Shown: positions 1,912-13,845 of the stretch, in pieces
Position numbering within the stretch: the first letter of the stretch is position 1
Layout of the letters: every line of letters begins with the position of its first letter
Assembly: GCA_018825145.1 (NCBI GenBank)
Contig: JAHJFD010000034.1
Location: forward strand, 1 to 46,604
Length of the DNA: 46,604 nt
Direction: 5' to 3'
Origin: Patescibacteria group bacterium
GTDB taxonomy: Bacteria; Patescibacteriota; Gracilibacteria; UM-FILTER-43-11
The notes under the pieces: generated by a model
Databases searched by the model: none
What the model was told of the DNA's origin: nothing
What the model saw: the letters and a program-made list of their open reading frames with translations, nothing else
Made by a program: the position numbers and the translations under genes

Positions 1912-3570
1912 ACTCTCTTGATAGCAGGGCTCACAATAAATTTTTTCAGGTCTTTCCTTCGAATAAGTCGTTTTGATATCAACTGAGCACTTATCACACT
2001 TGCGATCATAGAGTATTCGTGGATTCTTTAGTTTCATTCGGTCACCATGCCGGCATTCAAAGCATTTTCGGGGAACAGGTAGGCCAGCGTTCCGGTACAA
2101 CTTTAACTCCTGCGCAATCACCTTGTAGTTCTTACCGCAATCCACGCATGCCAGAATTTTCTTTGTAATTTCATCAGGAACATCTTCTATATCATCCGGT
2201 ATATCGTAGGATTGGGGCTGATATTCACGCTGATCTTTCGCTTGCCAATGATACCCACGCGCCAGACATTCCTCTTTGGTAAGAGGATAATTCTCCTGAG
2301 CCTCGGTGGTATTATAAGTAAACGGCGAAAGCTTGGCCGGAAAAAAATCACCCCACTCACCCGCTTTTTGCATGACTTCAATGATTTGAGCAACCTGCTT
2401 TTCATACTCATCGGGACTGTATTTCTTATTGAGGATCATGTATTCCGCGTGTTTCAGACCAACGCAACCAAACAGATTCTTGCAATTGTTCATACAAATA
2501 TCGGAGTAATATAGATCACTGCCGGCATAGGAACCTGAACATGAAATTGAATTAAAAGGCATAGGGACACACTCACAGTTCTCGTAACCGAGTTCACCGC
2601 TAACGTAACAACAATCATAGGCATCCTTTATTTCAAAGCCTCCCATCACATATTTGCAGTCTTTTGCTTCAGTCAGATCGTAGCACTCTATGCAATTCTG
2701 GGCATTGGTCAGAAAATCTCCGCTCGAATCAATAATGGTGCCCCTCTTTCTCATATGAGGATTGCTGGCATTCAGTACATTCTCAAAGAAATGCGCCTTG
2801 GCCTTCTGTAGATTAGAGTAAGAACTCATTGGAAATTCTTTAAGCTTCTGAAAATACTCCTTTTCGGAATATTCCTTATTCGCAATATGAAATTTCTTAT
2901 TCCTCAAACCGTAAGACATAAAGCAGTTGGAACAGTTACGACAGTCCAGTAAAAAGGCTGAATCGGAACATTGATTAGAAAAAAGAATAAACTGGCTGTT
3001 GTAAATATTTTGCGCAAAAATGCTTTCGTAGGTCAGTTGGCAAGAATCAATGAGTATATTGTCAATGCAGTCTTTACTTTTTTCAATCCAGACACCATAA
3101 AAACAGTCCCGGTTAAAATCTGAGGAAAACAATAGATAGCAATCCTTTAAATGAGAAACGCAGTTGGTGTATTCGCTGTTCTCATTCTGGCTCTGCATCA
3201 GGGCCATGCGGGGCACCCGCTTCCGAAGTTCCTGGAACTGCTCAAAAAAGGAACGACTAGTATCGTAATCTTGGCCAAAAAATGTTGGATCCCACTGATC
3301 ACTCCACCAGCACTTGATACAATAAACCGGAAAATCAGCTTTCTCGGAATACATGGAAAAAGTTTTCTGCTTGCAAAGGTCACAGTCTCGCTGAAATAGC
3401 ACGCGCTCATTACGCCAGCTCAAACGACGTTGTCTGCGGCAGTCAGGACAAAGCGTTGGTTCGGGTACAGAAAATTTCTTCCCGGCAACAACCGGACCTA
3501 TCCTGTCATAAAACTCCCGATCACTATCGACTATTTCAAAGCCAGTGCTGCACCGCTTACAATTGGGCAT
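1903..3570 (-). CDS. Cys-rich zinc-finger-like protein, array member 1 (distal)
   Basis: A 555-residue member of the six-gene paralogous family; I recognise no named family. The N-terminus has a CKRC pair and CPDCR, then CDLC and YCIKC, compatible with zinc ribbons. The centre is a run of DC/NC..C motifs about 15-25 residues apart, suggesting a small-turn solenoid. The C-terminus ends in two more finger-like pairs (CDKC, YCEPC). It has about 37 cysteines, no signal peptide and no membrane helix, so it is probably cytosolic. Unlike its paralogues it keeps an extra CVDC...KCFEC finger near residue 480-520, and it ends in QESLS instead of the shared LKEVY tail. That fits its place as last gene, since the tail encodes the ribosome site of the next gene. 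Start chosen at MPNCKRC, in a TGATG overlap with member 2. Confidence 0.85.
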   Translation of the reverse strand: MPNCKRCSTGFEIVDSDREFYDRIGPVVAGKKFSVPEPTLCPDCRRQRRLSWRNERVLFQRDCDLCKQKTFSMYSEKADFPVYCIKCWWSDQWDPTFFGQDYDTSRSFFEQFQELRKRVPRMALMQSQNENSEYTNCVSHLKDCYLLFSSDFNRDCFYGVWIEKSKDCIDNILIDSCQLTYESIFAQNIYNSQFILFSNQCSDSAFLLDCRNCSNCFMSYGLRNKKFHIANKEYSEKEYFQKLKEFPMSSYSNLQKAKAHFFENVLNASNPHMRKRGTIIDSSGDFLTNAQNCIECYDLTEAKDCKYVMGGFEIKDAYDCCYVSGELGYENCECVPMPFNSISCSGSYAGSDLYYSDICMNNCKNLFGCVGLKHAEYMILNKKYSPDEYEKQVAQIIEVMQKAGEWGDFFPAKLSPFTYNTTEAQENYPLTKEECLARGYHWQAKDQREYQPQSYDIPDDIEDVPDEITKKILACVDCGKNYKVIAQELKLYRNAGLPVPRKCFECRHGDRMKLKNPRILYDRKCDKCSVDIKTTYSKERPEKIYCEPCYQESLS

Positions 3571-5258
3571 CAATAAACCTCCTTTAAATAACACTGCTCA
3601 CAATATACTACTTCTGGCCTGTCGGGAGAATATGTTGTTTTAATGTCTTTTTGGCATTTGCCACAGTTTCGATCCCAAAACTTACGGGGATTTCTTCTAT
3701 GAAATCGATCCAAATGCCTTTGATCCGGGCTTCGCCTTGGAATTGGCAAGCCCTGCTCTCTGTAAAACTTTAACTCAGGATGAATGAGCTTGAAGGGCTT
3801 ATCTGTTTCCTCGCATCGGATAGCCCAATTCAGGATATCGTCAGGAATGTCATTGGTTTTATCAGGGAGCTGCTCTGCCTTAATCACCTTTTCCACCTGA
3901 GGTGCTGGGGGCTCATAATCATCCCACTTCCAACCTTTGGCCAAAACCTCTTCTTTCGTCATTGGATAATACATCTGGGCAGTGGTCTTGTTGTACCCAA
4001 AGGGAGAAACTGTATGACTAAAGAATTCACCCCACTCGCCCCCTTTTTTCATATGTTCAATGATCCTTGGCACAAGCTCCTCGTATTCCTCCTTCGTATA
4101 CTGCTTATTCAAAATACAATAGCTCTTCTGAAACATATTTGTACAACCAAAACAGTTTTTGGACCTTTCCATGTACCAACAATAACTGAGATCTGAACTG
4201 CTCACATGACCACCGAAAGTAAAGAGTAGATGAAAGCTATTTTCACCGCTGATAAGACACTCGTAAGATTCTTGCAGGTTGGAACCGTATTGATAGATAT
4301 CATAGAGGTTTTTACCGCCCAAAACGACTTGATAGCAGAATTTTGCATGCTCCAAATCCTCGCAATCAAAAGAATATTCAGTATTTCTACAATTTACGAG
4401 GTGATCACCGTAAGAATCCTCCAAATTATGGCCTGTATATTCCTTGAAAGTGTGTGATCTCTCCAATTCCTCAAGTCGCTTTCTATATTTTTGGTATTGC
4501 TCATGAGAACTCAAGTCAATCTCAGACATTTTCTTCTCATATTCCTCTTTTGAAAGCTGCTTATTTTCAAAACAGTACTCCTTCTCACGCAATCCGACAC
4601 AAAGGAAGCAATTCTTACAGCCTATACAATCCCGAAGAAACGCACTAGAGCTGCAATTGACGCAATCCTGTGACCCCGTTAGGCCAAAACAATTGTGAAC
4701 GTCGACACAGTCATAACAAAGCTCTGACTTGATGTTGTAAAAGCCGTCTACGCAGGATTTATCCTTTTTAAAACCATAACCGTAATAGCAATCCTCACAA
4801 AAATCAGCGTGCATAATCAAATAGCAGTTCTTACAAGATCCAGCATAGTGAATATAGTCAGAATTGATCAAAGTACCCTGAGTATCCAAAGCCTGGGACG
4901 GTGTTTGCCTTCTGAGCTCAGCAAACTGCTCAAAGAAAGGACGAGAAAAATCAAAATCCCTACCGGATTCGTGTTGATCCCATTTATCACTATGCCAACA
5001 CTCCCTACAATAAATAGGCTGCGGAGCATCCGGACCAAATTGAGAAAGCGTTCTTTGCTGACACAGCCCGCATTCCCTTTGATACAAAAATCTCTCATTG
5101 CAGAATGAGAGCCTCCTTTGCTGCCTGCAATCGGGACATAGGGTTGGTGCGGGAATAGAATATTTTTTTCCAGCTATAACCGGACTCACCCGATCATAAA
5201 ACTCACGATCTTTGTCGGTGACCTCGAAACCAGCATTGCACTGTTTGCATGTATTCAT
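3570..5258 (-). CDS. Cys-rich zinc-finger-like protein, array member 2
   Basis: A 562-residue paralogue of member 1. It starts at MNTCKQCNAGFEVTDKD, with its ATG overlapping the stop of member 3 by one base (TGATG). N-terminal CKQC and CPDCRQQRRL are followed by CGLCQQ and YCRECWHSDKW, then the family block GRDFDFSRPFFEQF. The middle contains repeated C-x2-C/DC motifs, and the segment GC.NCF.CVGL..KEY...NK recurs later as NCFGCTNMFQKSYCILNKQY, revealing two homologous halves. The C-terminus has CGKCQKDIKTTYSPDRPEVVYCEQC. Its last codons (YLKEVY) contain AAAGGAGG, the ribosome site for member 1. Function unknown; metal binding is inferred from cysteine spacing only. Confidence 0.85.
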   Translation of the reverse strand: MNTCKQCNAGFEVTDKDREFYDRVSPVIAGKKYSIPAPTLCPDCRQQRRLSFCNERFLYQRECGLCQQRTLSQFGPDAPQPIYCRECWHSDKWDQHESGRDFDFSRPFFEQFAELRRQTPSQALDTQGTLINSDYIHYAGSCKNCYLIMHADFCEDCYYGYGFKKDKSCVDGFYNIKSELCYDCVDVHNCFGLTGSQDCVNCSSSAFLRDCIGCKNCFLCVGLREKEYCFENKQLSKEEYEKKMSEIDLSSHEQYQKYRKRLEELERSHTFKEYTGHNLEDSYGDHLVNCRNTEYSFDCEDLEHAKFCYQVVLGGKNLYDIYQYGSNLQESYECLISGENSFHLLFTFGGHVSSSDLSYCWYMERSKNCFGCTNMFQKSYCILNKQYTKEEYEELVPRIIEHMKKGGEWGEFFSHTVSPFGYNKTTAQMYYPMTKEEVLAKGWKWDDYEPPAPQVEKVIKAEQLPDKTNDIPDDILNWAIRCEETDKPFKLIHPELKFYREQGLPIPRRSPDQRHLDRFHRRNPRKFWDRNCGKCQKDIKTTYSPDRPEVVYCEQCYLKEVY

Positions 5259-6919
5259 CAGTAAACTTCTTTTAGATAACATTGCTCGCAGTATACTACC
5301 TCTGGCCTATCCGGAGAATAGGAAGTCTCAATATCCTTCTGGCATTTGGCACAATTACGATTCCATATCATGTATGGATTCTTTATTTTGATTCTATCCC
5401 AATGACGCTGGTCAGGGTGACGATGAGGAATGGGAAGATTCTGTTCACGATAAAATTTCAATTCCTGCGCCACTATTTTATAGGGTTTTTCGGTCACCTC
5501 ACCAACAATAGCCCAATTCAGAATATCATCAGGTACATCCTTTATATCATCAGGTAAGCGCTCCGCTGGAATAGTCTTCACCGCCTGCAATTCAGGTTCA
5601 AAATCGGACCATTTATAGCCTTGCTCGAACGCCTCCGCCTTCTTCAAGGGAAAATGATCCTGTGCCAAGGTTTCGTTGTAGCCAAAGGGCGAGATATTTG
5701 GCGGAAAGAACTCACCCCACTCCCCCGTCTTCTTCATATGCTCAATAATCCTGGGAACCAACTTTTCATATTCCTCCTTGGAATACTGCTTGTTCAGAAC
5801 GCAATATTTCTTATGCTTGAGTCCGGCAGAGCCGAAACAATTTGTGCAATTTCGCGTGCACCAATAAGAATAATAGATGTCGCTGACACCCACACCGCAG
5901 TAAGAGCTCATGAAGACATTGGTGGCACCTGCACCCACAGCAGAGCAGTTGTAACAGCGTTCCATTTTATCGCCCCAAACATGAACATCCATGCTATCAA
6001 AAGAAGCAAGAAGGCAGTTGGTACAATAACGACAATCTTTTAGGTCGTTGGAATCAAAACAATAATACGAATTCTGGGAATTGCTCAGGTTGTCACCATG
6101 AGAATCAACATTCTGAACACCCCGGGTCGCTTTGACTGGCTGGGTCAAATGAAACTCTCTAACCTTCTTCTTCATTTCCTGAATCGCGCCATAATGACCA
6201 GACTGAAAATCAGCCATAAATTTTTCATACTCTTCCTTTGTATGAGGCTTATTGAAAATATGATATTCCTTCTGATGTAAATTGGCACAGCCAAAGCAAT
6301 TCTTGCAACCGATACAATCCCTTAAGAACCAGGAATCTGAACTGCTTGTGCAAAAGCTGGAATACTTCAGATTGAAACAGTTATTACAGCCGGTACATTC
6401 ATAACAAAGTTCCGACTGATACAGGAAAAGGAACTCCATGCAATTCCTCAAGTCAAAAAAGGTTTCACCGTAATAAGTATCCTCTGCCCGCTCGCCATCG
6501 AAGACAAGATAACAGTTCTTGAGCTTATAGTTATCGTTCGTGAAGTCGCTGTTTATATTGTCACCCATCAAAGAAAGCGCGATATGGGGGACAGCCTGAA
6601 TCAGTTCATTAATCTGTTCAAAAAAAGGTCGATTAAAGTCAAAGTCTCGCCCATACTCCATCGGATCCCATTTATCTGAAAACCAATCACTCACATTATA
6701 GACCTTGAATGGTTTGTCGGGGGAAATCACCGAAACGATATTCTCGCCGGTTAAATCACATTTACGCCTATATAGCTTTCGGCGATTATAAAAAGCCAGT
6801 CGCCACTTCAAACGACAGGTAAAGCACATGGTTGGGTCGGGCATATTAAGCTTGCTCAGAAGAGCCCTGTCTTCCTTAAGGATTTCAAAGCCAGTGCTGC
6901 ACTGCTTACAATTGGGCAT
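5258..6919 (-). CDS. Cys-rich zinc-finger-like protein, array member 3
   Basis: A 553-residue paralogue with 31 cysteines. The N-terminal ribbon differs from its relatives: the segment between CKQC and the second pair is shorter and reads MCFTCRLKWRL in place of CPxCRxQRRL, and the VYC.xCW pair is replaced by VYNVSDWF, so one metal site of the family is probably lost. The middle has the densest cluster (LCYECTGCNNCF, DCIGCKNCFGC), followed by the two NK.(Y/H)(T/S)KEEYE blocks that mark the internal duplication. It ends in the common NCAKCQ...YCEQCYLKEVY tail. The start is MPNCKQC at 6919, overlapping the stop of member 4; the tail of member 3 supplies a weak SD (AAAAGAAG) for member 2. Confidence 0.85.
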   Translation of the reverse strand: MPNCKQCSTGFEILKEDRALLSKLNMPDPTMCFTCRLKWRLAFYNRRKLYRRKCDLTGENIVSVISPDKPFKVYNVSDWFSDKWDPMEYGRDFDFNRPFFEQINELIQAVPHIALSLMGDNINSDFTNDNYKLKNCYLVFDGERAEDTYYGETFFDLRNCMEFLFLYQSELCYECTGCNNCFNLKYSSFCTSSSDSWFLRDCIGCKNCFGCANLHQKEYHIFNKPHTKEEYEKFMADFQSGHYGAIQEMKKKVREFHLTQPVKATRGVQNVDSHGDNLSNSQNSYYCFDSNDLKDCRYCTNCLLASFDSMDVHVWGDKMERCYNCSAVGAGATNVFMSSYCGVGVSDIYYSYWCTRNCTNCFGSAGLKHKKYCVLNKQYSKEEYEKLVPRIIEHMKKTGEWGEFFPPNISPFGYNETLAQDHFPLKKAEAFEQGYKWSDFEPELQAVKTIPAERLPDDIKDVPDDILNWAIVGEVTEKPYKIVAQELKFYREQNLPIPHRHPDQRHWDRIKIKNPYMIWNRNCAKCQKDIETSYSPDRPEVVYCEQCYLKEVY

Positions 6920-8574
6920 CAATAAACTTCCTTTAAATAACACTGCTCACAGTATACTACCTCGGGTCTATCGGGAGAATAGGAGGTTTTGATGTCCGCA
7001 TTGCATTTGGCGCAATTTCGGTTCCAAAGTCTGTTCGGGTTTCTGGTTTTCATTCTTTCCATATGACGCTCATCAGGATGCAACCTGGGGATGGGAATAT
7101 GATGTTCACGATAAAATTTGAGCTCTTCCTTGGTTAAGCGAAATGGCCTTCCTGAAACCTGACATTTGATAGCCCAATTCAGAACATCATCCGGAATGTC
7201 CTTACTGTTATCCGGTAGCTTTTCAGCCGATATAACCTTTTCCACGTCGGGCAGGGGTGCCTCATAGTCAGACCATTTGAAGCCCTGCTCAGCAACCTCA
7301 TTCTTAGTAAGTGGATACTGTTCATGGGCAACCGTTTCGTTGTAACCGAAAGGCGAAATCGAAGCAGGAAAAAATTCACCATATTCCCCGTTCTTTTTCA
7401 TTTGCTCAACAATCCGTGACCTCAGCCCCCCATATTCTTCCTTAGAATACTGTTTATTCAGAATACAATATTCATTCCGCTTGAGTCCGACACAGCCAAA
7501 ACTGTGACTTGAATTGTGAGAGCCATAAGAGTACTGCATATCCGAACAGGTCCAGTTCTGGACCGAGAATTGGACATTGAATGAAGAAATGCCGGTATTG
7601 ATCGCCTCATAAACCCACTCCGCCTCACGACCCACAGTGCTGACATCCATATTATTCTTTGACCCACGCCAGACGTGCTCACCATATTTGCAGTATTCGG
7701 CGTCGTGCGCATGATAGCATTCCTCACAATAACGCGCATCCATAATATAATCACCAAAGCAGTTTTCTGAATTTAGAATATGAGCATACTTATGAGGTTG
7801 AGTTAAAAAGAATTTCTTTGCTTCAGCAAGCCAATGTCCCAATTTCTTATACGAATCAAAATCTATTTTCCTAATAAATGCTTCGTATTCCTCCTTCGTA
7901 TGGGGCTTATTAAATATGTAATACTGCTTTTGATGCAGATTTATGCAGCCAAAACAATTTTTACACCCAATGCTGTCTTTCAGAAAATAGCTATCAGAGC
8001 AACTAGTACAATCCTGAGACCATTTTAAGTTGTAACAGTTGTAGCAATTATCAATTTCATAGCAGTAACGGGACTCATGAGAAAAAGAACTGTCAACACA
8101 ACCAAGACATTTTTGAAGCCAGTAACCATATAAGCAGTCCTCATTGTTACTGCTTTCGGTAATCATGTAACAGTGCTTACAATTGGCCAGCAAATGACAG
8201 TAATCGCAATCCTCATTATTGGCTCCAATAAGCGACATATGGGGAACAGCCCACATTAACTCATTAAATTGCTCAAAAAATGGCCGGTCGAAATCATAAT
8301 CCCTACCGTAATCGAGAGGATTATATTTGTCAGACCACCACTCCTGAGTCGAATAGACCTTGTAAGGCTTATCGGGTGAAAAAATCGATATAAGACGCTC
8401 ACCAGAAAGATCTGACTTGCTCACATACAGCTTTCTCTCATTTCTCCAAGCTAAACGCCTTTGTGCCCGGCAAGTGGGACAGAGAGTGGGAGACGGGACA
8501 TCAACTTTTTGATAATATTGCCAATCTTTATCGGTAACTTCAAAGTCTGTCTGGCATAATTTACAAGTTTTCAT
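6919..8574 (-). CDS. Cys-rich zinc-finger-like protein, array member 4 (first gene of the coupled quartet)
   Basis: A 551-residue paralogue. The reading frame stays open upstream to 8709, but homology starts at MKTCKLCQTDFEVTDKD and a -10 box sits 6 nt upstream, so I place the start at 8574. It has the family plan: N-terminal C-x2-C and CPTCRAQRRL, FFEQF block, a Cys/Asp-rich middle (CYEIDNCYNCYNL, DSIGCKNCFGC), a second half ending SFGCVGLKRNEYCILNKQY, and a C-terminal NCAKCNADIKTSYSPDRPEVVYCEQC pair. It is divergently transcribed from the ORF6N gene at 8685, and the two share overlapping -35 boxes. Members 4, 3, 2 and 1 are joined by TGATG overlaps and are probably one transcript. Confidence 0.85.
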   Translation of the reverse strand: MKTCKLCQTDFEVTDKDWQYYQKVDVPSPTLCPTCRAQRRLAWRNERKLYVSKSDLSGERLISIFSPDKPYKVYSTQEWWSDKYNPLDYGRDYDFDRPFFEQFNELMWAVPHMSLIGANNEDCDYCHLLANCKHCYMITESSNNEDCLYGYWLQKCLGCVDSSFSHESRYCYEIDNCYNCYNLKWSQDCTSCSDSYFLKDSIGCKNCFGCINLHQKQYYIFNKPHTKEEYEAFIRKIDFDSYKKLGHWLAEAKKFFLTQPHKYAHILNSENCFGDYIMDARYCEECYHAHDAEYCKYGEHVWRGSKNNMDVSTVGREAEWVYEAINTGISSFNVQFSVQNWTCSDMQYSYGSHNSSHSFGCVGLKRNEYCILNKQYSKEEYGGLRSRIVEQMKKNGEYGEFFPASISPFGYNETVAHEQYPLTKNEVAEQGFKWSDYEAPLPDVEKVISAEKLPDNSKDIPDDVLNWAIKCQVSGRPFRLTKEELKFYREHHIPIPRLHPDERHMERMKTRNPNRLWNRNCAKCNADIKTSYSPDRPEVVYCEQCYLKEVY

Positions 8575-8580
8575 GATTGG

Positions 8581-8608
8581 ATTATACAGCGAAATAACAC
8601 CTTGATAA
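8581..8608 (-). promoter_or_regulatory. Predicted leaderless promoter of Cys-rich member 4
   Basis: On the minus strand, TTATCA (8608-8603) and TATAAT (8586-8581) are 16 nt apart, and only 6 nt separate the -10 box from the ATG at 8574. Transcription would start at or beside the start codon. The -35 box overlaps the -35 box of the divergent ORF6N promoter. Confidence 0.65.
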
Positions 8609-8630
8609 GTGAACAAAAGTTCACTATAAT
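8602..8630 (+). promoter_or_regulatory. ORF6N-1 promoter with palindromic operator in the spacer
   Basis: TTGATA (8602-8607) and TATAAT (8625-8630) are separated by 17 nt. The spacer is filled by GTGAACAAAAGTTCAC (8609-8624), which has 6-bp inverted arms. The arrangement recurs at 10910-10938. Confidence 0.8.
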
Positions 8631-8643
8631 GAGGTCTTACAAA

Positions 8644-8670
8644 TTTGAAGTCACAATTTGTGACCTCAAA
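8644..8670 (+). promoter_or_regulatory. 27-bp palindrome in the ORF6N-1 leader
   Basis: Arms TTTGAAGTCACAA and TTGTGACCTCAAA surround a single central T; only one base pair between the arms mismatches. It lies between the predicted transcription start (~8637) and the ATG at 8685. Candidate operator or RNA hairpin. Confidence 0.75.
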
Positions 8671-8684
8671 ATAACCGCAATAAC

Positions 8685-9230
8685 ATGGGTAAAGCAGTAT
8701 CAAAATCACTCATTCCAACCGAACGAATTGAAGGTGTTATATGCACAATGAGAAGTCAAAAAGTAATACTAGATGAGGACTTGGCAATACTCTACGAAGT
8801 TGAAACAAAAAGTCTAAATAGAGCATTCTATCGAAACGAAGAACGATTTCCTGAAGATTTTGCCTTTCAAATAACAAAATCAGAATGGAATTCTTTGAAG
8901 TACCAATTTGGTACTTCAAAAAAGGGACGAGGTGGTCGACGAAAACTACCAATTGCATTTACAGAAGAGGGCGTTGCTATGCTGTCGGGCATCTTAAGAA
9001 GCGCTCAAGCAGTCACTGTAAATATCGAGATCATGCGCGCCTTCGTGAGGATGCGCTACATCATGACCTCCCAAAAAGAAATGAGCAAAGAATTAACTGA
9101 AGTAAAATCATTCCTCCTTAAACACTCCAATTCATCAGACCGTGAGTTCAGACGAGTATGGCAGGATATCGAAAAACTCAGCCAACCACCAACTCAAGAA
9201 GAACGTCGAATTGGCTTTCAAATAAACTAA
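8685..9230 (+). CDS. ORF6N-domain DNA-binding protein 1
   Basis: A 181-residue protein. The first ~100 residues match the ORF6N (phage/KilA-N-associated) DNA-binding domain: IPTERIEGVICTMRSQKVILDEDLAILYEVETKSLNRAFYRNEERFPEDFAFQIT, then AFTEEGVAMLSGIL. The C-terminal ~60 residues look helical and coiled-coil-like and end in a WQDIEKLSQPP motif shared with the second copy. Such proteins are common as phage antirepressor or regulator genes but also stand alone on chromosomes. It is divergent from Cys-rich member 4 and convergent with member 5; its stop TAA overlaps the stop codon of member 5 by 4 nt. The coding sequence contains a 27-bp palindrome (8894-8920) matching the one in its leader. It is likely autoregulated; the target is inferred. 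Confidence 0.85.
   Translation: MGKAVSKSLIPTERIEGVICTMRSQKVILDEDLAILYEVETKSLNRAFYRNEERFPEDFAFQITKSEWNSLKYQFGTSKKGRGGRRKLPIAFTEEGVAMLSGILRSAQAVTVNIEIMRAFVRMRYIMTSQKEMSKELTEVKSFLLKHSNSSDREFRRVWQDIEKLSQPPTQEERRIGFQIN
8894..8920 (+). repeat. 27-bp palindrome inside the ORF6N-1 coding sequence
   Basis: Arms TTTGAAGTACCAA and TTGGTACTTCAAA are perfectly complementary around one central T. The palindrome encodes residues LKYQFGTSK, just after the FPEDFAFQIT segment. It has the same length, ends and AATTT centre as the leader palindrome at 8644, differing mainly two bases either side (CA versus AC). Confidence 0.85.
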
Positions 9231-10882
9231 TAAACCTCCTTTAAATAACATTGCTCACAATATACTACCTCGGGCCGCTCCGGTGAATAGGAGGTTTTGA
9301 TAGCCGACTGGCATTTGTCACATTTGCGCTCCCACAGTTGTCTCGGATTTTTAAGAGCCAATCGCTTCAAATATCTTTGATCTGGACAAAGATCAGGAAT
9401 TGGCAGCTCTTGCCTTCTATAAAAGCTTAATTCCTGAGCAGTTATTCTAAAGTTTCTGTCGGATTTCTTGCATACAAGTACCTCACTCACAATAGAATCC
9501 TCTACATCCTCAATATTTTCAGGAACTTTAACCGTCTGAGGCCGGTAATCCCGCTTATCAGGTTCGCGCCACCGGAAGCCTTTTGCAAGACATATCTCTT
9601 TTGCAGACGGAAAAAATTCCTGTGCCAAAGTTTCATTGTAGGCAAACGGCGAAATGAACGGAGGAAAAAAGCGTCCCCATTCCCCCGTTTCTTTCACATG
9701 CCTGATGATCTTAGGCATCAACTCATTGTACTCATCAACAGAATACTGCTTATTCAGAACAACGTATTCATTATGATTCAGACCAACTGAACCAAACACG
9801 TTCTTGCTGTACATGCATTCAAAAGAATAAAGTCCCCACTTAAAATCACAGCAAATGGCCGAAAACAAAGTGTTCCTGTAGTAACCCCCGCCACCGTTAA
9901 AATAACTGAGTTCCGTTTCGCCGGTACGGTTGTGGTCCATACAGTCTTTAGCCACAAAAACGTCACACATATATTTGCAGTCCTCAAGCTTCACGCCCTC
10001 AAAACAATAATGTGAATTTTTTGAATTCTGAAGATAATCACCCGTACAGTTTTCGCTGTTTATAAGCCTGCTTGCCTGATGAGGATGCTTAGCTTTCAGC
10101 TTTTTGACTTCTGTCCGGATATTTTCAGCATGCTTTGGATCATTGAGCTTCTCAATCATCTCGAAGTACTGCTCTTTAGTATACGGCTTATTAAAAATAT
10201 GATATTCCTTGCTCCGAAGGCCGACACAGCCAAAGCAGTTTTTGCAGTTACGCAGATCAAACGAATACGCGCAGTCACTGACATTGTGACAGTCCTGACA
10301 AAATTTCGAGCTATAAGTGTCAGAGCAATCGACGTTCATATAACCAAGCTCAAAATTCGTATTAAAAGAACAGTCGAGTGTATCTTTTCCGTGATAAGAC
10401 CAGTCCATATACATGCAGTCTTCCATATAGCCGGAACCGAAACAAAGGTGACAGCTTTTGGATTCGTTGACGTAATTGTCGTAATCGCAGTTCTCTACGG
10501 CATAATTCACCAGAGCCGCTTTCGGCACCGCCTTCAAAAGTTCAGCGAACTGTTCAAAAAATGGCTTATTAAAGTCAAAATCACGACCATAGTCCAGCGT
10601 ATTCCACTTATCACCCCACCAGCAGTCGTAACAGTAAACAATGAACGGCCCGTCCGGCGCGTAAATAGAGATAACCGATTTATCGCAAAGAGCACACTTT
10701 CGCTGATAAAGCGCCCTCTCATTCCTCCACTGAAGCCGCAAAATCTGCCGGCAGTCCGGACAATTTTCCGGCTCGGGAATCAGAAACCTTTTACCACCAA
10801 AGACCGGACTTACCTTTTGGTAAAACGTCCGATCGGAATCGGTGACTTCAAAGCCTGCGTTGCATTGCTTACAGACTAGCAT
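9227..10882 (-). CDS. Cys-rich zinc-finger-like protein, array member 5
   Basis: A 551-residue paralogue, separated from the coupled quartet by ORF6N-1. Start MLVCKQCNAGFEVTDSD at 10882 is preferred to upstream methionines because it begins the conserved block and has a -10 box 6 nt away. It carries CPDCRQILRLQ, CALCDK, YCYDCWWGDKW, the FFEQF block, a middle of C/D motifs (DCSDTYSSKFCQDC, NCKNCFGCVGL), a second half ending NVFGSVGLNHNEYVVLNKQY, and CDKCQSAIKTSYSPERPEVVYCEQCYLKEVY. The stop is TAG, where coupled members have TGA overlapping the next ATG. The AAAGGAGG in its tail is therefore an orphan ribosome site with no gene following it on this strand. Confidence 0.85.
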   Translation of the reverse strand: MLVCKQCNAGFEVTDSDRTFYQKVSPVFGGKRFLIPEPENCPDCRQILRLQWRNERALYQRKCALCDKSVISIYAPDGPFIVYCYDCWWGDKWNTLDYGRDFDFNKPFFEQFAELLKAVPKAALVNYAVENCDYDNYVNESKSCHLCFGSGYMEDCMYMDWSYHGKDTLDCSFNTNFELGYMNVDCSDTYSSKFCQDCHNVSDCAYSFDLRNCKNCFGCVGLRSKEYHIFNKPYTKEQYFEMIEKLNDPKHAENIRTEVKKLKAKHPHQASRLINSENCTGDYLQNSKNSHYCFEGVKLEDCKYMCDVFVAKDCMDHNRTGETELSYFNGGGGYYRNTLFSAICCDFKWGLYSFECMYSKNVFGSVGLNHNEYVVLNKQYSVDEYNELMPKIIRHVKETGEWGRFFPPFISPFAYNETLAQEFFPSAKEICLAKGFRWREPDKRDYRPQTVKVPENIEDVEDSIVSEVLVCKKSDRNFRITAQELSFYRRQELPIPDLCPDQRYLKRLALKNPRQLWERKCDKCQSAIKTSYSPERPEVVYCEQCYLKEVY

Positions 10883-10888
10883 AATCCA

Positions 10889-10916
10889 ATTATACATCCT
10901 AAAAATCCCTTGATAA
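10889..10916 (-). promoter_or_regulatory. Predicted leaderless promoter of Cys-rich member 5
   Basis: TTATCA (10916-10911), a 16-nt spacer, TATAAT (10894-10889), then 6 nt to the ATG at 10882. The geometry is identical to member 4, including the -35 box overlapping that of the divergent ORF6N gene. Confidence 0.65.
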
Positions 10917-10938
10917 GTGAACATATGTTCACTATAAT
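10910..10938 (+). promoter_or_regulatory. ORF6N-2 promoter with perfect 16-bp palindromic operator
   Basis: TTGATA (10910-10915), a 17-nt spacer and consensus TATAAT (10933-10938). The spacer is one base plus GTGAACATATGTTCAC (10917-10932), a perfect palindrome. A bound protein would cover the promoter and, through the shared -35, the divergent one. Confidence 0.85.
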
Positions 10939-10951
10939 GAAACCTTACAAA

Positions 10952-10978
10952 CCTGAGGTCACAAATTATGATCTCAAA
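10952..10978 (+). promoter_or_regulatory. Palindrome in the ORF6N-2 leader
   Basis: Imperfect palindrome with core TGAGGTCACAA and TATGATCTCA arms around a central AT-rich base group; it aligns base for base with the leader element at 8644-8670. It lies between the promoter and the ATG at 10993. Confidence 0.7.
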
Positions 10979-10992
10979 AAAATAAGCAGTCT

Positions 10993-11535
10993 ATGAGCAA
11001 AACATCATCAAATTCACTTATTCCATCAGAACGAATCGAAGGAATGATATATGTAATAAGAGGTCAAAAAGTCATATTAGATACTGATTTGGCCGATTTG
11101 TATGAAGTAAAAACCAAACGTCTCAATGAACAGGTCAAAAGAAATTCGCAACGCTTTCCGCCTCAATTTATGTTCCAACTGACGGCAGAAGAAAAATCAG
11201 AGGTGGTCGCAAAATGCGACCACCTAAAGAATTTAAAATTTTCAAAGACAAACCCCTATGCTTTTACAGAACACGGGGCGCTAATGGCAGCCAACGTATT
11301 AAAAAGTGAAAAAGCCATTGCCATTAGTATTCAAGTAATTCAAGCCTTTATTCAATTACGACAATTAATCAGCTCACACACGCAACTAACTCAAGAAATC
11401 AATTCACTAAAAACTTTTGTTTTGAAAAATGCGCAAAAAACCACCCAAGAATTCAAAAGAATCTGGCAGGCCATCGAAAAACTCAGCCAGCCACCAGATC
11501 GAGAAGAAAAGAGAATTGGCTTTGATACCAGTTGA
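10993..11535 (+). CDS. ORF6N-domain DNA-binding protein 2
   Basis: A 180-residue paralogue of ORF6N-1. The N-terminal half has IPSERIEGMIYVIRGQKVILDTDLADLYEVKTKRLNEQVKRN, then RFPPQFMFQLT and YAFTEHGALMAANVL. The C-terminal half ends WQAIEKLSQPPDREEKRIGF, almost the same as copy 1. Divergence is strongest just after FQLT, where this copy encodes VVAKCDHLK from a palindrome (11201-11225). It is divergent from Cys-rich member 5 and convergent with member 6, with a further palindrome between its stop and that of member 6. A regulator role is inferred from the domain; whether it controls the Cys-rich genes or only itself is unknown. Confidence 0.85.
   Translation: MSKTSSNSLIPSERIEGMIYVIRGQKVILDTDLADLYEVKTKRLNEQVKRNSQRFPPQFMFQLTAEEKSEVVAKCDHLKNLKFSKTNPYAFTEHGALMAANVLKSEKAIAISIQVIQAFIQLRQLISSHTQLTQEINSLKTFVLKNAQKTTQEFKRIWQAIEKLSQPPDREEKRIGFDTS
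11201..11225 (+). repeat. 25-bp palindrome inside the ORF6N-2 coding sequence
   Basis: Arms AGGTGGTCGCA and TGCGACCACCT (11 bp, perfect) flank three A residues. It sits at the homologous place to the internal palindrome of ORF6N-1. Its inner GGTCGC/GCGACC matches the flanking element at 11538-11564. Confidence 0.85.
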
Positions 11536-11537
11536 TT

Positions 11538-11564
11538 TATGAGGTCACAAATTGCGACCTCAAA
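11538..11564 (+). promoter_or_regulatory. Palindrome between ORF6N-2 and Cys-rich member 6 stops
   Basis: TGAGGTCACAA and TTGCGACCTCA arms (11540-11562) lie between the convergent stops. The sequence nearly repeats the leader element at 10952, so the ORF6N-2 gene is flanked by two copies in the same orientation. There is no U-tract on the ORF6N-2 strand, so it is not a standard terminator for that gene. Confidence 0.7.
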
Positions 11565-13211
11565 CTAATAAACCTCCTTTAAATTGCACTGCTCGCAGTA
11601 TACTATTTCGGGCCTGTCAGGTGAATAAGTTGTCTGTATGGCTCTTTGGCACTTATCGCAGTTCCGATTGTAAAGTTTACGGGGATTCAGCCACGCCAAA
11701 CGGTCCTGATAGCGCTGATCTGGGTGACGACGGGGCAGAGGCAGGTGCTGAGTTCTGTAAAACTTAAGCTCCTGCGAAATAATTTTAAAAGGTCGGTCGG
11801 TGACTTCACATTGAATCGCCCAGTTCAGAACATCGTCAGGAATCGCCGTAACGGCATCGGGCAATCGGGAAGCCGGAATGATTTTTTCCACTTTCGGAAG
11901 TGGTAGCTCCTCGTCCGTCCATTGCCAGCCGCGGGCAAGAGCCTCCTCACGGTTCAGAGGATAAAAGTCCTGTGCAATCGTTTCGTTGTAAGCGAACGGA
12001 GACAAGGATGTCGGAAAAAACTCACCCCACTCCCCAGCCTTCTTCATGCTTTCAACGATCTTCGTCCGGAGAGAAAAATAATCTTCTTTTGAATACTGTT
12101 TATTCAGAATGCAGTACTTTCCCCGCTTGATGCCCACGCATCCATACAGATCATTGGAATAAAATGATTCAACAGAGTAGGAAACGTCCTTTACATCCCA
12201 GCAAAACACATTACAGATTCCGTTGTAGGCGTTGACTGCGCTCATTGAGTTGTACACAAGTTCCGCCTTAGGGGAATAATTGATGTCCGCGCAGTCTCTG
12301 GCCCCCTGCGGAATGTTCCAGCAGTAAGCGCAGTCCTCGAGGCCAAAACTTAAAAAACAGTCGCGCGCGTTCCGGCAGTTGATCAGGTAATCGCCAGTGG
12401 AATTTTCAGTATTCACTTTGTGTAGATCCCTCTGCGGGAATTTAAGCACGTGAGCTTTCAGACGGCTCATCATTTCATTCAGCTTCCCGCGGTCCGAGCG
12501 AAGCTCCGCCATCTGACGATCAAATTCTTCTTTGGTAACTTTTTGATTGAAGACATAGTATTCCTTATTCTTAAGACCAAAACAGCCGATACAGTTTTTG
12601 CATCCATCGCAATCGACGCAAAACGCCAGATTGGAAGAATGGTGACTGTCTTTACAGAAGATCGAATTGTAAAGACTCACGCATTCAACGCATTCATAGC
12701 AGAGCTCGCAGCCGGAACAGGCATAACAGTCTGTGCAGTCGCGCGAGTCGTTCGTCCAGTAGGAATACATAATATTTTGGCCCACCACCCCGGACACGCA
12801 CATGTAGCTGTTCTTGTAGTAAACGGAATAGGGGCAGTACTCACTGTTTTCGCCGTGGGAAACGATCATCGCCATATGCGGCACCGCCTTCATCAGGTCC
12901 TTAAACTGCTCAAAAAAAGGCCGTGAAAAGTCATAATCCCGCGCGTAACTCATGGCATCGAACTGGTCGCACCACCAGACGTCCTGGGCCGCAACTTTGT
13001 AAGGCGAAAACGGAGAATAGAAAGAAATAATGGATTTCCCTGAAAGATCACATTTTCGCTTATAAAGAGCGCGCTCGTTCCGGAACGACAACCGAAACTG
13101 ATTGCGACAAGCCGGACAATAATGGGGTTCCGGCACATCCATTTTTTTATAAAACCGCTGATCGGAATCAGTGGCTTCAAAGCCTGCATTACATGATTTA
13201 CAAATCCTCAT
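11565..13211 (-). CDS. Cys-rich zinc-finger-like protein, array member 6 (most promoter-proximal)
   Basis: A 548-residue paralogue starting MRICKSCNAGFEATDSD. N-terminal C-x2-C and CPACRNQFRL, CDLSGKSIISFYSP, FFEQF block. The central cluster CTDCYACSGCELCYECVECV is the most cysteine-dense of the array, followed by FCVDCDGCKNCIGCFGLKNKEYYVFNQKVTKEEF and a second half ending DLYGCVGIKRGKYCILNKQYSKEDY. It ends CDKCQRAIQTTYSPDRPEIVYCEQC and NLKEVY-TAG, with an orphan AAAGGAGG. It is divergent from the toxin-antitoxin pair at 13304. No signal peptide or membrane helix is seen. The paralogues share the frame LPD...IPDDVLNWAI before the last finger, which may be a separate C-terminal domain. Confidence 0.85.
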   Translation of the reverse strand: MRICKSCNAGFEATDSDQRFYKKMDVPEPHYCPACRNQFRLSFRNERALYKRKCDLSGKSIISFYSPFSPYKVAAQDVWWCDQFDAMSYARDYDFSRPFFEQFKDLMKAVPHMAMIVSHGENSEYCPYSVYYKNSYMCVSGVVGQNIMYSYWTNDSRDCTDCYACSGCELCYECVECVSLYNSIFCKDSHHSSNLAFCVDCDGCKNCIGCFGLKNKEYYVFNQKVTKEEFDRQMAELRSDRGKLNEMMSRLKAHVLKFPQRDLHKVNTENSTGDYLINCRNARDCFLSFGLEDCAYCWNIPQGARDCADINYSPKAELVYNSMSAVNAYNGICNVFCWDVKDVSYSVESFYSNDLYGCVGIKRGKYCILNKQYSKEDYFSLRTKIVESMKKAGEWGEFFPTSLSPFAYNETIAQDFYPLNREEALARGWQWTDEELPLPKVEKIIPASRLPDAVTAIPDDVLNWAIQCEVTDRPFKIISQELKFYRTQHLPLPRRHPDQRYQDRLAWLNPRKLYNRNCDKCQRAIQTTYSPDRPEIVYCEQCNLKEVY

Positions 13212-13217
13212 GGCACG

Positions 13218-13245
13218 ATTATACAACAAAAATATAAATCATTGA
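13218..13245 (-). promoter_or_regulatory. Predicted leaderless promoter of Cys-rich member 6
   Basis: TATAAT (13223-13218) is preceded by TG, with 6 nt to the ATG at 13211, as for members 4 and 5. The -35 region is weak (TCAATG, 13245-13240) and overlaps the strong -35 of the divergent antitoxin promoter. Confidence 0.5.
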
Positions 13246-13303: not shown

Positions 13304-13579
13304 ATGTTACCCAAAATTGTTTCACCATCAGAATTGCGAAAAAATCTCGCCGCTTTTCTGGAGCTGGCCATGCACCAGGTCGTTGTTGTAACTGATAAAG
13401 AGTCAAACAAGGTCATCATTGATGAGAGGGAATATAACCGCCTGAGTGCTCTGGCCGATCAGTTCATGCAGGAAGATCCCGAAGGAGAATATCGGCCTGG
13501 ATTCGTCAAAGAGGTCCTGCACCGTTCAAGGCATGGAGAAATTGATGAAACAGTCAAATCAATAAAGGACCTGTTATGA
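13304..13579 (+). CDS. Phd/YefM-family antitoxin
   Basis: A 91-residue protein with MLPKIVSPSELRKNLAAFLE near the start and VVVVTDKESNKVIIDEREYNRLSAL after it, the usual Phd/YefM N-terminal DNA-binding fold. The C-terminal ~40 residues are charged and would wrap the toxin. Its end overlaps the toxin start by 4 nt (ATGA), the normal type II arrangement. The operator repeats upstream suggest autoregulation. The pair is divergent from Cys-rich member 6. Family assignment is from sequence pattern only. Confidence 0.85.
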   Translation: MLPKIVSPSELRKNLAAFLELAMHQVVVVTDKESNKVIIDEREYNRLSALADQFMQEDPEGEYRPGFVKEVLHRSRHGEIDETVKSIKDLL

Positions 13580-13845
13580 TCGAAGTGGAATACAATAGGG
13601 ATTTTTTGAAGGATTTTAAAAAATTACCAAAAAACATCCGAAAAAAACTGGGCGAATTGGAAGAAATATTCAGAGAGAATCCATTCCATCCCGAATTACA
13701 CAGCAAAGGATTACACGGAAAATTGCGGGATTTCTATTCATTTCGGATCACACGCGATTACCGGGTTGTGTATTTATTTACTGATGAAAACAAAGCGCTC
13801 TTTCTGCTTGTGGGACACCGAAAAGATATTTACAAAAAAATCTAA
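13576..13845 (+). CDS. RelE/ParE-superfamily toxin (probable mRNA interferase)
   Basis: An 89-residue protein with the RelE/YafQ pattern: FLKDFKKLPKNIRKKL, NPFHPELHSKGLHGKLRDFYSFRITRDYRVVYLF and a C-terminal VGHRKDIYKK. The YSFRITRDYRVVY strand and the HRKDIY end hold the conserved basic/aromatic residues that RelE-like toxins use on ribosome-bound mRNA; this role is by family analogy. It is cotranscribed with the antitoxin. Its stop codon TAA overlaps, on the other strand, the TAG stop of a Cys-rich gene remnant, the same CTAATAAACC junction found after ORF6N-1. Confidence 0.85.
   Translation: MIEVEYNRDFLKDFKKLPKNIRKKLGELEEIFRENPFHPELHSKGLHGKLRDFYSFRITRDYRVVYLFTDENKALFLLVGHRKDIYKKI

Follow-up and report, generated by a model that had tools for sequence, protein, structure and literature searches.

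Why should two related genes each carry a 27-bp palindrome in the middle of their own coding sequence? The question is raised by contig JAHJFD010000034.1 of a Patescibacteria group bacterium (GTDB lineage Patescibacteriota; Gracilibacteria; UM-FILTER-43-11), the whole 46,604-nucleotide stretch of which was analysed and is called the window here. It contains two genes of the ORF6N family (PF10543 in Pfam), both above the curated cut-off of 27.8 bits, and a second set of palindromes in their leaders. The comparisons described below suggest that the internal palindrome is a target of the very protein that the gene encodes. The genes and their palindromes are as follows.

8685 to 9230, + strand: ORF6N gene 1, 181 amino acids, 107.3 bits in Pfam; recognition helix residues K42, S43, R46 and R50
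8644 to 8670 (centre 8657), unstranded: gene 1 leader palindrome, 12 of 13 pairs; half-site TCAC, Q type
8894 to 8920 (centre 8907), unstranded: gene 1 internal palindrome TTTGAAGTACCAATTTGGTACTTCAAA, perfect, 13 of 13 pairs; half-site TACC
10993 to 11535, + strand: ORF6N gene 2, 180 amino acids, 108.9 bits in Pfam; recognition helix residues K42, R43 and E46, from the helix alignment
10952 to 10978 (centre 10965), unstranded: gene 2 leader palindrome TGAGGTCACAAATTATGATCTCA, degenerate, 9 of 11 pairs by eye
11200 to 11226 (centre 11213), unstranded: gene 2 internal palindrome GAGGTGGTCGCAAAATGCGACCACCTA, 11 perfect pairs flanking three central bases
11538 to 11564 (centre 11551), unstranded: palindrome 3' of the gene 2 stop codon, 11 of 13 pairs; arms TCAC/TCGC

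A sequence-only reading of this locus had described leader and internal palindromes in both genes and a third palindrome beyond the stop codon of gene 2. All of these are present, the leader copy of gene 2 in a degenerate form that was classed as a weak upstream copy in the search for upstream sites resembling a gene's own. The centres of both leader palindromes lie 28 bp 5' of the ATG. That reading also held that the sites of each gene share length, ends and centre. This is correct for gene 1, although its leader and internal sites are unlike at the specificity-setting bases (TCAC versus TACC), and incorrect for gene 2, whose internal site has different ends (GAGGTGG...) and is read in a different frame from that of gene 1 (EVVAKCDHL versus LKYQFGTS). 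A whole-genome scan with TNNCAAWTTGNNA found a symmetrical sequence, or one deviating by a single base, at four places: in the leader and in the interior of gene 1, behind gene 2, and in a third ORF6N gene located on a different contig. The internal site of gene 2, with its centre CAAAATG, escapes this pattern.

The internal palindrome across the family

Three sources supplied ORF6N genes: the window's class, in which 51 of the 353 genomes contain a match; 80 contigs from genomes of many phyla; and 50 contigs of viral origin. For the contigs, only the 53 residues encoded 5' of the palindrome served as the query, so that the palindrome itself lay outside it. In the resulting non-redundant set of 171 genes (less than 80% identity), a palindrome reaching the threshold score of at least 9 occurs at the same codon position in 150 genes (88%). 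The corresponding rates are 0.6% in codon-shuffled versions and 0.9% in other segments of the same genes. The original proposal thus passes its codon-shuffle control, and the palindrome is a feature of the DNA itself. Its centre is mostly located 20-21 codons past the RFP motif.

The composition of the palindrome was followed in 166 sites, with the half-site bases (k) numbered from the centre outwards. Watson-Crick pairs make up 1416 of the 1494 positions compared at k3-k11, or about 95%. Bases k2, k3 and k6 are near-invariant; k4, k5, k7 and k8 are variable, and at these positions the two arms change jointly. In ten genes, including gene 2 of the window, a similar core is present in another frame and encodes an unrelated peptide (VVTNCDHL versus LRSQFVTS). 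The palindrome occupies codons 70-79 of gene 1. Confidence in the AlphaFold model of that protein is lowest at residues 71-80, where the predicted local distance difference test score (pLDDT) averages 63, in a loop ahead of the strand at 90-92. As modelled, this location fits a peptide stretch that is free to follow the needs of the DNA.

The palindrome is also nearly exclusive to ORF6N genes within the class. The motif TTGANNTNNCAAWTTGNNANNTCAA matches about 60 places, spread over 38 of the 353 whole genomes, and the reversed pattern matches none; as judged by comparing places, all but two are in or beside an ORF6N gene. A dispersed mobile palindrome of the REP or RPE type was considered and rejected for the window's class on the basis of this near-confinement.

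Two observations from the sampling stand apart. Solitary palindromes of the ORF6N kind are found near position 1501 of L074 and L077, with no ORF6N gene detected nearby; an rmuC-like gene and an unnamed one are their neighbours. Three genomes belonging to a single genus (G021-G023) have ORF6N frames (L051, L064 and L004) with in-frame TGA codons, and these are either pseudogenes or cases in which TGA has been reassigned.

Helix residues and half-site bases

If the palindrome is read by the ORF6N protein, its variable bases might be expected to follow particular residues. Each well-filled domain column lying before the palindrome was therefore scanned against half-site bases k4, k5 and k7-k11. 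For k4, residue 46 (z 71) stands well clear of all other columns, and for k7, residue 42 (z 30) ranks first. In the AlphaFold model of gene 1 (pLDDT 86.9), both residues are on the helix at 41-50, which follows a helix at 30-37 and is the second of a helix-turn-helix. Residue 43 tracks k4 and k5, and residue 50 tracks k3.

At k4 the relationship can be stated as a simple rule, in which Gln46 is accompanied by A, Glu46 by G, and Arg46 or Lys46 by C. The rule is obeyed in 159 of 166 genes, compared with a mean of 82 and a maximum of 101 in 2000 shuffles. By residue, Gln occurs with A in 106 of 112 cases, Glu with G in 22 of 24, and Arg or Lys with C in 29 of 30 (symmetrical). Lys42 is paired with G at k7 without exception (78/78). 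Arg50 is accompanied by C at k3 in 159 of 161 cases, while Asn or Ser at that position occurs without it. Contacts of Gln with A, Glu with C, and Arg or Lys with G are classical pairs seen in many protein-DNA structures. Both internal sites in the window conform: in gene 1, C at k4 suits R46 and G at k7 suits K42, and in gene 2 (TCGC), G at k4 suits E46 and G at k7 suits K42. The leader site of gene 1, being of the Q type, is at odds with the R46 of its own protein.

Genes that follow the k4 rule number 51 of 56 in the window's class, 72 of 76 in other phyla and 34 of 34 among the viral genes. These groups do not constitute a sealed hold-out, since the rule was first spotted by eye in the class genes when the remaining sets had already been collected. 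A later set of plasmid and phage genes (L239-L250) yielded a detected site in 13 of 14. Of these 13, ten fit the rule in full, two more do so with just the left arm, and L245 breaks it; in the fourteenth gene, TGCCAAATTGGCA was found by eye together with R46. The ten genes with the alternative reading frame all obey the k4 rule.

Common descent could produce associations of this kind, as could contacts within the protein. Relatedness was addressed with a FastTree tree from which the recognition helix and the palindrome-coded stretch had been masked. On this tree, k4 and residue 46 have each changed at least 46 times. Among supported independent pairs of genes that differ in k4, residue 46 is concordant in 14.6 of 16 pairs on average and opposed in 0.0. 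The corresponding figures for k7 and residue 42 are 12.3 of 14 and 0.0.

Intraprotein contacts are addressed by synonymous codons. Where the palindrome encodes Ser as TCA, residue 46 is Gln in 100 genes and Glu in one, and where it encodes Ser as TCG, the counts are 2 and 17 (P=1.6e-17, uncorrected for relatedness). The choice between AGG and AGA for Arg similarly tracks residue 42 (P=5e-12), as does the choice between AAG and AAA for Lys (P=9e-9), both again uncorrected for relatedness. A contact within the protein should not select among synonymous codons, yet the codons track the helix, which makes it very probable that the palindrome is bound by the protein encoded by its own gene. The idea that a coding-sequence operator co-varies with the protein gains strong support from these sequence comparisons, with one extension: the palindrome appears to vary with the DNA-reading helix, beyond the stretch that it encodes.

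What the internal site may do

The explanation that we favour, with a probability of roughly 0.6, is that ORF6N binds an internal self-site, with an elongation roadblock as the most likely effect. In this model, ORF6N is a helix-turn-helix protein that would bind the palindrome in its own coding sequence, probably as a dimer, with residues 42, 43, 46 and 50 reading k7, k5/k4, k4 and k3, respectively. Since the codons that contain the self-site specify a flexible loop, the protein could tolerate the substitutions needed for site and helix to stay matched. An upstream copy is missing in most genes, and the internal site, located about 220 bp past the start codon, is thus taken to be the universal one. 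Bound protein would halt RNA polymerase at that point, and the resulting negative feedback would move with the gene to any place of insertion. By analogy with known intragenic roadblocks, autorepression is the likely outcome; binding, dimerisation and the roadblock itself are steps that we infer.

Several points weigh against this explanation. The lack of a matching promoter site in most genes is unusual for autorepression, and the roadblock must carry it. The AlphaFold model is of a single chain, and the dimer is a proposal. L245, one member of a subfamily, combines K46 with GG and departs from the simple rule. Finally, recognisable sites that are confined to genes of the protein's own family do not point to a purpose for the protein.

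In a related but unlikely explanation, the protein does bind its own gene, but its function is to recognise ORF6N genes of the same type, as in exclusion or incompatibility of mobile copies, and feedback is incidental. Specificity groups would then diversify like phage immunity types. The at least 46 switches at k4 on the tree and the 27 core types are consistent with this explanation, as are the match to a PADLOC defence candidate (PDC-S05) and the foreign type of many additional sites. One internal site is detected in 142 of 166 genes, and ten genes have two or more. In nine of these ten, at least one palindrome fits the gene's own helix at k4 and k7, and the fitting one is usually the last; among the extra internal sites, only 1 of 14 fits at both bases, compared with 3.9 expected from a family draw. 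However, the extra sites show no obvious match to other resident ORF6N genes. Paralogues in the same genome share a type in just 1 of 36 pairs, but this is not significant, whether types are dealt among these genomes (P 0.17) or compared with the family (P 0.08), and orthogonality of paralogues within a genome is suggestive only.

The foreign-type extra sites could be remnants of earlier changes of specificity, targets of other members of the family, or both. In L040, L046, L047, L031 and L111 there are two to five internal palindromes, the extras being mostly of types foreign to the gene's own protein. In L155, an ORF6N gene is followed downstream, at 2100-2410, by a tandem array of six palindromes of the ORF6N kind, each of them perfect or nearly so, at intervals of about 51 bp, with similar spacers and a different core in each.

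It is tempting, if rather doubtful, to go further and regard ORF6N genes as specificity groups in which a protein would act solely on genes of its own type, starting with its own gene, and resident copies would silence incoming ones. Were this so, foreign-type palindromes, whether internal, flanking or arrayed, would record or exploit other types, and the joint switching of helix and site, with a label carried in synonymous codons, would be the engine of diversification.

DNA looping between the internal site and sites in the leader or flanks, as at the lac or gal operators, is improbable. In its favour, the sites of the window genes are about 250 bp apart, and copies resembling the gene's own site occur within 150 bp upstream in about 6% of genes, a figure that falls to about 0.1% for permuted palindromes. 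Most genes, however, lack a second site, and the gene 1 leader is of the Q type while its protein has R46. Beside the 166 genes there are 30 external sites, mostly within 150 bp of the gene, and their fit to the gene's own k4 rule is at chance, both upstream (7 of 13, 6.2 expected) and downstream (9 of 17, 9.6 expected). The sequence-only reading had also expected upstream and internal sites to match within genes. Family-wide they match at chance level, and external copies are found beside a minority of genes.

Still less probable is a cis-acting origin or maintenance site like oriLambda in gene O. A binder's site would again lie inside the binder's gene, additional copies are in tandem in some genes, and an ORF6N gene adjoins the replication gene on two small Segatella plasmids. 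Against this, a single internal site is the usual state, the loci are mostly chromosomal, and no further copies are present near the replication gene of the small Segatella plasmids.

An mRNA hairpin, the alternative offered in the sequence-only reading, finds hardly any support. The palindrome is able to fold as RNA, but at pairs k3-k11 G.T mismatches (14) are fewer than A.C mismatches (29), so there is no preference for G.U; moreover, Rfam yields no match, and the bases track the recognition helix. That the peptide alone is conserved with the palindrome as a by-product, or that residue 46 contacts loop residues within the protein, would account for the correlation of residue 46 with loop residues via codons, but is next to untenable given that the palindrome is lost on codon shuffling, that the other-frame genes keep the rule and that synonymous Ser codons track residue 46 and Arg and Lys codons residue 42, which refutes it unless codon choice is otherwise caused.

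Self-binding by ORF6N would have several consequences. A widespread family of uncertain function gains a predicted DNA target and a readable residue-to-base code, and would provide a strong case of regulatory DNA inside the gene of its own reader across phyla, phages and plasmids. The dozens of independent paired switches are material for studying joint change in a regulator and its site, and synonymous codon choice is linked to a residue about 30 positions away. Pairs of ORF6N genes and sites are also candidate orthogonal repressor-operator pairs.

Surroundings and closest known systems

The two window genes are each divergent from a cysteine-rich gene on the opposite strand, and one further feature can be placed 5' of gene 1.

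8604 to 8632, + strand: putative gene 1 promoter, identified by eye (TTGATA, 17 bp, TATAAT), with the box GTGAACNNNNGTTCAC between the hexamers

The box GTGAACNNNNGTTCAC also occurs at five other places in the genome. A box TGAACNNNNGTTCA is present in both ORF6N promoters (8610-8623 and 10918-10931 of the window) and, elsewhere, near HigBA-like genes, a cytosine methyltransferase with a Vsr-like gene, and a tyrosine recombinase (L234, L235 and L237). LexA, and hence an SOS response, was considered as the reader of the GAACNNNNGTTC box and rejected, as the genome, which is 93% complete, has no match to PF01726. On the minus strand, positions 3570-13229 contain large cysteine-rich (CxxC) genes in a tandem array, to which the two genes divergent from the ORF6N genes belong, and the three array genes that were scanned match no Pfam family above the cut-off. 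A pair consisting of a Phd/YefM-like antitoxin and a ParE-like toxin is located at 13304-13845.

The ORF6N domain has BFVD matches to KilA-N proteins (best E 1.7e-5) and a PHROG match to an anti-repressor (1.8e-26). Together with the helix-turn-helix-like fold of the AlphaFold model, the BFVD matches place it among KilA-N/Bro-N-like proteins; PDB sequence and fold searches gave nothing significant, with no match at E <= 0.001. ORF6N thus resembles KilA-N, Bro-N and phage antirepressor proteins in fold and profile, and in the literature found, which was considered alongside an analysis confined to the ORF6N domain, no internal self-site is described for them. The window proteins also match the PADLOC PDC-S05 profiles (4.5e-54 and 1.6e-58). 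This likeness is a profile match only, to a defence candidate by listing, with no mention of palindromes.

Three further systems bear comparison. LacI acts as a roadblock to transcription of its own gene at lacO3 (PMC3711431). That site is a normal lac operator which also serves elsewhere, and not a coding palindrome tied to specificity. The lambda O protein binds DNA repeats in the middle of its own gene, and these repeats also encode part of the protein (PMC7466680). The likeness to ORF6N is that the binding sequence is within the binder's own gene; the difference is that oriLambda has several iterons and an AT-rich stretch and serves replication, whereas ORF6N genes usually have one palindrome (142 of 166 are single-site) and no sign of an origin.

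A close functional precedent is C.Kpn2I, a controller protein that binds inside its own coding region and represses itself through an elongation roadblock, a mechanism that its authors suggest may be widespread among its relatives (PMC6237814). Both are small DNA-binding regulators with a site in their own coding region, which for ORF6N is inferred from the matched changes of helix and site. C.Kpn2I, however, is the C-protein of a type II restriction-modification system, while ORF6N belongs to another family and does not appear to be part of such a system: few restriction-modification genes occur among its downstream co-directional neighbours. These neighbours are varied, and a conserved operon partner was accordingly rejected. 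The sequence-only reading knew of no description of such palindromes. For ORF6N this stands, to the extent that the titles and abstracts of open-licence literature naming the family contain none, but C.Kpn2I is a close precedent in function. Self-sites within a regulator's own gene are already known, from C.Kpn2I and lambda O. Unlike C.Kpn2I, ORF6N has a mid-domain site in about 90% of its genes across phyla, together with a residue-base code, and a family-wide, phylum-spanning self-site whose code reaches synonymous bases is, to our knowledge, new.

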